DNA of 35,253 nucleotides from Acidimicrobiaceae bacterium. Its GTDB lineage: Bacteria; Actinomycetota; Acidimicrobiia; Acidimicrobiales; Aldehydirespiratoraceae. Numbering within the stretch: the first letter of the stretch is position 1; each line of letters opens with the position of its first letter. The notes under the pieces were generated by a model. It did not search any database, was not told where the DNA came from, and was given only the letters and a program-made list of their open reading frames with translations. Of this stretch, positions 5,094 to 6,777 are shown in pieces. The DNA lies in NCBI GenBank assembly GCA_002694825.1, contig NZNH01000084.1:2076-37328 (forward strand), in the 5' to 3' direction. The translations under genes were made by a program, and so were the position numbers.

Positions 5094-6572
5094 TCAGCGC
5101 AGGTAGACGTACTGGTCGTCGTTCAAGATGGCGTCGATCCCGGCGTCGCGTAGGGCCCCCGCCAGGTCGAACGGCTCGGCGATCGCAAAGCGCTGCATGC
5201 CGTGGTCGGCGAGCACGATGACCGCAGTGCGGTCGAGTTTTCCGGCCGCCTCGATCTCGGCGAGCACATCGCGCATGCGGGCATCGGTGTCGCGAATGGC
5301 GGCGTGGAGGATCTCCGAATGCGGCCCACCGGCGTGCCCGCAGGCGTCGGTGAGGTTGAACGTGAACCAGCTGTAGCGGGGGAGCGCCCCGAACTCGCCC
5401 CGCCAGACATGCAGGGCCTCGTTGCGGGAGTGGGCGTCGTAGATCGATGCGTTGCGGAACTCCTTCACCCCCATGAAGTCCTCGGTGCGGTGCAGACGGC
5501 GGTCGGCGTCGGAGAGGGTGGGGATTGGCCCGTTCGTCGTCATCTGGGCATACGTGGAGTAGTCGGCGCCGCGATCGCCGTATTCGTAGGTCGTGGCGGT
5601 GAACGCCTCGGGCTCGTGACGCTTCAACGCCTCGTGGATCGTCTCGACGCCGGGCGCCAGGTGTTCGCGGGCTCGGATCATCTGGTGATAGTCGAGCAGG
5701 TCGACATGGACGTCCCGGTCCCGGTCGAACCAGGTGTTGTGGAGTACCCCCGACCGTCCGGGGAACACACCGGTGCACTGTGTCGTGTGGTTGGCCAGTG
5801 TGGCGGTCGGCAGCGCCGAGATGCAGCCGTGTCGGTAGGAGGTGCCTCGTTCGATCAGTGAGGCGATGCCAGGGGCCTCACCTCGATCGACGGCGTCGTG
5901 CAGCGCGTTGGGGTTCACCCCATCCCACAGAAACACGACGACGTGGTCGGGACGCTCGTCGGGGTCGAGGAGTTCGGTGATCTCGTCGCCGTCCTGCATG
6001 GCGAGCCGGACCCCGCTGCGGGCGCGACCTCGGCCGTCGACCCCATCGCCGGCCGGAATGCCGAGCAGGGCAGCGATCGTCGGCGCGACATCGACGGTGC
6101 GGAGATGCTCGGTCACGATGCCGCGGGGCCGGATCCCGGGCCCGGCTGCAATGAACGGCGCCCGGGCCTGGATGCCGCCGAGCGAGCCGTGGTTCCCGAC
6201 ACAGTCGTGGAACATCTGCTGGGGCGACCACATGACGGCGGCGTCGGGCGCGTGCTCAGCGTCGAAGTACTGCACGACCGATTCGTACGCGAGGGGCGTG
6301 GCGAGTTCGCCGAGGGACACCCCCTCGACCGCAACCTCGGCCTCGGTCCCGATGCCCTGATCAAGCGCCTGATTCCGCAGCGGGTGGTCGCCGGACTCGG
6401 CGAGGATCTCGATCGACCCGTCGGGGGCTTCGCAGAAATCGACGGCGCCGGTGGCCGACGCGGCGCGGAATCCGTCACCGGTTTGCATGACCACGGTGTC
6501 GACGTAGCGGGTCATGGACGAATCGGTGAGCAACGATTCGAGCCGGGAGATGGGGGTATCGGCGAGGGTCAC
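5094..6572 (-). CDS. Alkaline-phosphatase-superfamily phosphodiesterase with permuted domain order
   Basis: A 492-residue enzyme of the type I phosphodiesterase/nucleotide pyrophosphatase superfamily. Residues about 208-460 hold the usual N-terminal part: VVFLWDGVNP (Asp217), nucleophile motif LPTATLANHTT (Thr258 at the TFPNH position), DACGHAGG (Asp409, His413) and LADHGM (Asp456, His457). The protein then ends about 30 residues later. The block that normally follows, GNHGS (His128) ... RAPFIAAGPGIRP ... DVAPTIAALLGIP, lies instead at 126-173, before the catalytic core. All metal ligands are thus present but in circularly permuted order. GTG 6572 is supported by TACGGT 7 nt upstream. The substrate is unknown; no signal peptide is seen. 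Confidence 0.8.
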   Translation of the reverse strand: MTLADTPISRLESLLTDSSMTRYVDTVVMQTGDGFRAASATGAVDFCEAPDGSIEILAESGDHPLRNQALDQGIGTEAEVAVEGVSLGELATPLAYESVVQYFDAEHAPDAAVMWSPQQMFHDCVGNHGSLGGIQARAPFIAAGPGIRPRGIVTEHLRTVDVAPTIAALLGIPAGDGVDGRGRARSGVRLAMQDGDEITELLDPDERPDHVVVFLWDGVNPNALHDAVDRGEAPGIASLIERGTSYRHGCISALPTATLANHTTQCTGVFPGRSGVLHNTWFDRDRDVHVDLLDYHQMIRAREHLAPGVETIHEALKRHEPEAFTATTYEYGDRGADYSTYAQMTTNGPIPTLSDADRRLHRTEDFMGVKEFRNASIYDAHSRNEALHVWRGEFGALPRYSWFTFNLTDACGHAGGPHSEILHAAIRDTDARMRDVLAEIEAAGKLDRTAVIVLADHGMQRFAIAEPFDLAGALRDAGIDAILNDDQYVYLR

Positions 6573-6579
6573 GGACGCG

Positions 6580-6585
6580 ACCGTA
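6580..6585 (-). promoter_or_regulatory. Candidate -10 TACGGT for the permuted phosphodiesterase gene
   Basis: TACGGT on the minus strand ends 7 nt before GTG 6572. This fixes the start at 6572 and argues that the N-terminal block of the protein is not an annotation artefact. Confidence 0.45.
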
Positions 6586-6670: not shown

Positions 6671-6709
6671 GTGAAGTGCTGCAGCAACACCCTGCTTCTT
6701 CTCGTGTAG
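6671..6709 (+). CDS. leuL: leu operon leader peptide (12 residues, four consecutive Leu codons)
   Basis: GTG-initiated reading frame encoding MKCCSNTLLLLV then TAG. Codons 8-11 are CTG CTT CTT CTC, four leucines in a row using four different codons, ending two codons before the stop. It sits just upstream of a stable hairpin, a rho-independent terminator and leuA, the defining arrangement of a leucine attenuator: slow leucyl-tRNA supply stalls the ribosome on the Leu codons and relieves termination. A GGAGG is present at 6664-6668 but only 2 nt from the GTG, too close for normal use. With TACCGT ending 7 nt before the GTG, a leaderless message is more likely. Leader-peptide attenuation of leu genes is known in actinobacteria. 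Confidence 0.75.
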   Translation: MKCCSNTLLLLV

Positions 6710-6735
6710 GCGAGCGCCACATACCGGCGCTCGCC
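6709..6735 (+). promoter_or_regulatory. Attenuator hairpin 1:2 after the leader stop codon
   Basis: GGCGAGCGCC (6709-6718) and GGCGCTCGCC (6726-6735) form a perfect 10-bp stem with a 7-nt loop, beginning at the last base of the TAG. The 3' arm 6726-6733 can alternatively pair with 6750-6758 (8 pairs including one G-U, one bulge). That would put the terminator's 5' arm in a loop and act as an antiterminator when a ribosome stalled on the Leu codons covers the first arm. The perfect stem is seen; the switching is inferred. Confidence 0.6.
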
Positions 6736-6736
6736 G

Positions 6737-6777
6737 AACCCTCCGTGCCCGAGTGGCCCGGAGGGTTTCTTGTTTTT
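6737..6777 (+). terminator. leu attenuator rho-independent terminator
   Basis: AACCCTCCG (6737-6745) pairs perfectly over 9 bp with CGGAGGGTT (6759-6767) across a 13-nt loop. It is followed by a T-rich tract, TTTCTTGTTTTT (6766-6777). It lies between the leader peptide and leuA, 40 nt before the leuA ATG. This is the clearest intrinsic terminator in the window. Confidence 0.8.

Follow-up and report, generated by a model that had tools for sequence, protein, structure and literature searches.

For studies of catalytic promiscuity and evolution, the alkaline-phosphatase (AP) superfamily serves as a standard model, and the topology of its core is regarded as conserved. The canonical order of Pfam family Phosphodiest (PF01663), to which the NPP enzymes belong, is core, cap and C-terminal His block. 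We take the published ligands of the Xanthomonas NPP (PDB 2gsn) to be D54, T90, D210, H214, D257, H258 and H363, and its Asn111, at nucleophile+21, is presumably the NPP-type phosphoryl-binding residue. The literature that we searched, which left most subscription journals outside, held no description of circular permutation in this superfamily. The SGNH hydrolases AlgX, AlgJ and PatB1 are described as natural circular permutants that retain the active site of their fold (PMC9487903). These proteins are unrelated in fold and chemistry to the enzyme described here and serve as an analogy only.

The window, the 35,253-nucleotide stretch of actinomycetotal DNA that we analyzed, carries a 492-residue open reading frame (ORF) on its minus strand (6572 to 5094), with a GTG start codon at 6570 to 6572, a stop codon at 5094 to 5096 and the C terminus ILNDDQYVYLR. 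We annotate positions 5094 to 6572 as the coding sequence of a permuted phosphodiesterase-like enzyme, based on the ORF, its PF01663 match and its intact homologues. A -10-like hexamer, TACGGT, lies 7 nt 5' of the GTG (6580 to 6585, minus strand), marks a possible leaderless start and is kept in three relatives of 93 to 96% identity. The sequence-only reading of this DNA had held the hexamer against a fusion of two fragments; the hexamer is in place, but it is a weak argument on that point, and a consensus scan upstream of the gene found no -35/-10 promoter.

PF01663 matches residues 211 to 488 of the protein over profile positions 1 to 250 of 342 (109.5 bits; cut-off, 23), while canonical PF01663 proteins from the same genus span positions 1 to 341. 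The best solved-structure match by phmmer was the Xanthomonas NPP, in three pieces that follow a permuted order: residues 225 to 283 align with 19 to 76 of 2gsn, 382 to 465 with 143 to 227, and 126 to 177 with 322 to 373. The last of these pieces is weak when taken alone (6.8 bits by phmmer) and becomes convincing because seven residues are invariant across the family. With the offset of 39 between the chain index and the published NPP numbering, His128 stands opposite His363. As the earlier reading had proposed, the last catalytic block precedes the core, and all seven metal and nucleophile residues are present. The enzyme shares with the Xanthomonas NPP the seven ligand and nucleophile residues, the Asn at Thr+21, DxxxH and DHGM, but it differs in chain order, with the cap and C-terminal block at its N terminus, and is about 100 residues longer (492 versus 393). 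NPP enzymes are, by sequence comparison, its nearest solved structures. The permuted enzyme is not an ordinary PF01663 member, since its C-terminal block precedes the core, but a permuted variant of the AP superfamily. Rotating the sequence gained only about 2 bits against PF01663, a profile that is blind to the displaced block.

Residues 1 to 203 (5964 to 6572, minus strand) correspond to the second half of the ancestral fold by the 2gsn match and the family alignment. They hold the cap helix, the VDxV..dG..v strand pairs and the GxHGS block with His128, followed by the VDVAPTIAALLG helix and the old C-terminal element DGDEITELL. The junction between the old C terminus and the old N terminus spans residues 204 to 207 (5952 to 5963); its exact bounds come from the alignment, and the rotation scan described below peaks at cuts at residues 180 to 205. 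Residues 208 to 492 (5097 to 5951) correspond to the first half, by the same two comparisons and PF01663, and end in the cap strand ..DDQYVYLR. This half contains the predicted nucleophile, Thr258 (codon at 5799 to 5801), and the predicted metal ligands Asp217 (5922 to 5924), Asp409 (5346 to 5348), His413 (5334 to 5336) and Asp456-His457 of DHGM (5202 to 5207). Asn279 (5736 to 5738) follows Thr258 by 21 residues, the spacing of NPP enzymes, and we take it to be the counterpart of Asn111. The remaining predicted metal ligand, His128 (6189 to 6191), has moved to the N-terminal half, where it lies opposite the His of GSHGY in 2gsn. All of these codons are on the minus strand.

Thirteen unpermuted relatives from the same phylum, each about 500 residues long, were compared with the permuted profile, which we rotated in 20-residue steps and more finely near the peak. 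In its native order the profile scored 163 over 256 columns; the peak, with cuts at residues 180 to 205, reached 255 over 434 columns. A cut at residue 195 covered positions 19 to 513 of the 521 of the unpermuted family, and at the resolution of the scan, the fold neither loses nor doubles any part after rotation. Because full-length collinearity with the unpermuted relatives comes only after rotation, the protein is very probably, as judged from these alignments, a true circular permutant of the AP-superfamily fold.

The unpermuted proteins (L050 and L053 to L064, all from Actinomycetota) resemble the permuted enzyme in length and in their elements, the cap segment GFIYL..helix..dG..lrF among them. 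They differ in their normal order, and in the sequences read, both the NxH that follows the nucleophile and the Asn of NPP type are replaced. One of them, L050, aligned over the breakpoint as one piece (iE 1.1e-27): in its GRIGFIYL-NESRREALRPAVVDTLVSTDGVVQVMWREDEAYVVTSKRGTLRF, the counterparts of the permuted C terminus and of the permuted N terminus, ISRLESLLTDSSMTRYVDTVVM..GDGFRAASATGAVDF, stand in succession. The C terminus reads ..GFIYL in most permuted relatives and YVYLR in the window protein. By sequence, the new termini fall between a likely strand (ending YVYL) and a helix (starting ISRLESLL). The earlier placement of the termini in the post-DHGM strand agrees with L050, which runs from ...GFIYL straight into the first helix of the permuted protein. 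AlphaFold2, for which the input was four near-identical sequences (the window protein and three relatives at 93 to 96% identity), gave a model with a pLDDT of 33, which we discarded. Mean-field covariation over 53 sequences, in which phylogenetic noise was dominant, showed no signal between the halves: 48 inter-half pairs were among the top 100, with 48 expected.

The arrangement is conserved. A match was found in 28 of 148 genomes from the same order, and 22 of those 28 kept the native order over most of the query length. A phylum-wide search recovered the same arrangement in further families, including 5 of 5 genomes in the class of G157, one with broken frames, and the class of G208, where 37 of 198 genomes had a match, mostly of full length. 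We extracted 56 full-length single-ORF permuted proteins, which include a few near-copies of the window protein, and aligned 53. These homologues come from the window's order and two other classes, and those from outside the genus are 34 to 42% identical to the window protein. H128, D217, T258, D409, H413, D456 and H457 are invariant in all 53, and Asn279 is invariant among 21 sequences. Among close relatives, dN/dS was 0.05 to 0.29 in both halves, indicating purifying selection. Viral, phage and plasmid collections held no relatives of the permuted enzyme. The search for homologues with the same order, which the earlier reading had called for, thus yielded more than 50 intact single-ORF actinomycetotal proteins from independent genomes; these rule out a frameshifted tandem pair and, the order being the same in uninterrupted frames, an assembly error as well. 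In two relatives, L150 (G597:C1, about 4542092 to 4542111) and L149 (G661:C16, 22244 to 22549), the permuted protein lies in two frames, with the break near query residues 148 to 180; a frameshift, gene fission or an assembly error may explain it.

Four of 396 genomes encode giant, apparently secreted AP proteins (L065 to L068; 1,181 to 1,389 residues) that consist, in this order, of C-terminal block B, a complete domain A in unpermuted form, core B and a tail resembling Ig and carboxypeptidase-regulatory domains. In L067, Pfam places domain A at residues 351 to 746, matching PF01663 profile positions 3 to 341 of 342. Domain B is cut at the same site as the single-domain proteins, and its halves match them best: against L067, the single-domain family scored 97 bits for C-terminal block B and 178 for core B, versus 8.5 and 79 for the corresponding parts of domain A. 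Domain A scored best at a rotation of 0 and domain B at 200 to 250, so the giants provide both a negative and a positive control for the permutation test within one protein. This control and the retention of the order in many families support the permutation that the earlier reading had proposed. The ligand motifs are kept in both giant domains where read. Unlike the single-domain proteins, the giants carry a complete unpermuted domain A at the permutation junction, a signal-peptide-like N terminus and the Ig/carboxypeptidase-regulatory-like C terminus, and LPxTG-like sorting signals, identified by eye, stand at the C termini of L066 and L068. We saw no signal peptide in the single-domain permuted proteins, and these are therefore probably cytosolic, as far as their sequences indicate. 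In trees of both halves, single-domain proteins, giant domain B, giant domain A and unpermuted proteins formed separate groups with no resolution of the branching order, and a single clade of single-domain proteins with giant domain B was neither shown nor rejected. Elsewhere, four consecutive PF01663 matches on one contig (G001:C254:1371-7175) are possibly another tandem array of the superfamily.

In the window, the permuted-enzyme gene converges with an alpha/beta-hydrolase gene on one side and diverges from leuA on the other, and within the window's order it has no widely shared neighbor. In the class of G208 (L136 to L150), it is fixed between an ABC1 kinase gene and genes for a WhiB-like regulator and UvrD-like helicases, names that we gave by reading the sequences rather than by family search; this neighborhood appears to reflect vertical synteny rather than function. 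Positions 6671 to 6770 of the plus strand, upstream of leuA (6818), hold in turn a leader peptide of 12 codons, VKCCSNTLLLLV, a hairpin and a terminator-like stem that carries a T-run. From these features the element looks like a leucine attenuator; Rfam gave no family match for it.

The permuted enzyme is probably a two-metal phosphoesterase of the AP superfamily. By homology, its two halves would fold into one AP core in which His128 completes the metal site, and Thr258, acting together with two bound metal ions, would attack a phosphate diester or monoester or a phosphonate. That the protein is instead an inactive or regulatory relative is improbable: its genome neighbors suggest no substrate, but the catalytic residues are all invariant in 53 sequences and the gene is under purifying selection. 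Still less credible is a fusion in which one AP-superfamily gene supplied its C-terminal piece and a second one a truncated core, with no joint active site, the case that the earlier reading had itself named as its refutation. These genomes commonly carry AP-superfamily paralogues, and the halves stand in separate frames in some relatives (G661 and G597). The same breakpoint nevertheless recurs in more than 50 single intact ORFs from diverse genomes, the ligands are invariant with His128 among them, the two halves jointly span the unpermuted family end to end with no overlap or loss, and it is domain B of the giants, in each of its halves, that matches the single-domain proteins best, rather than domain A. 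On the shared breakpoint, the invariant ligands and the end-to-end coverage, we reject a fusion of unrelated halves.

For the circular permutant, the ancestral chain of core, cap and C-terminal block would have been re-cut in the cap, between the YVYL strand and the next helix, and the old C terminus (the DGxxxTELL element) would run almost without a linker into what was once the first strand (VVVFLWDG). The family probably goes back to a tandem AP-domain array that lost parts at both ends. Such duplication and trimming, which the earlier reading had suggested, is supported by the giants, whose C-terminal block, full domain and core have the layout of a trimmed array. We put it at slightly below an even chance that the array came first and the single-domain enzymes are giants that lost the central unpermuted domain, as opposed to an A-type domain having been inserted into a single-domain protein. 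The junctions in the giants connect the C terminus of one AP domain to the N terminus of another, the linker ALLRRQDGEV, known from the single-domain proteins, recurs at the joint between C-terminal block B and domain A, and both forms occur in G157. Against this order of events, an unpermuted A-type protein, L051, stands alone, which makes insertion possible; single-domain proteins are more widespread than giants; and the trees leave the order unsettled.

The chances are about equal for and against the fuller account, a stable, anciently inherited permuted AP-fold family that has extant relatives in which the tandem-array stage of C-terminal block, full domain and core is retained. If true, a stable permuted family would mean that the catalytic core can accommodate chain ends newly placed in the cap. 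Annotation by profiles overlooks the displaced C-terminal part of permuted enzymes, and the giants offer a natural case for testing the duplication-and-trimming model of circular permutation.
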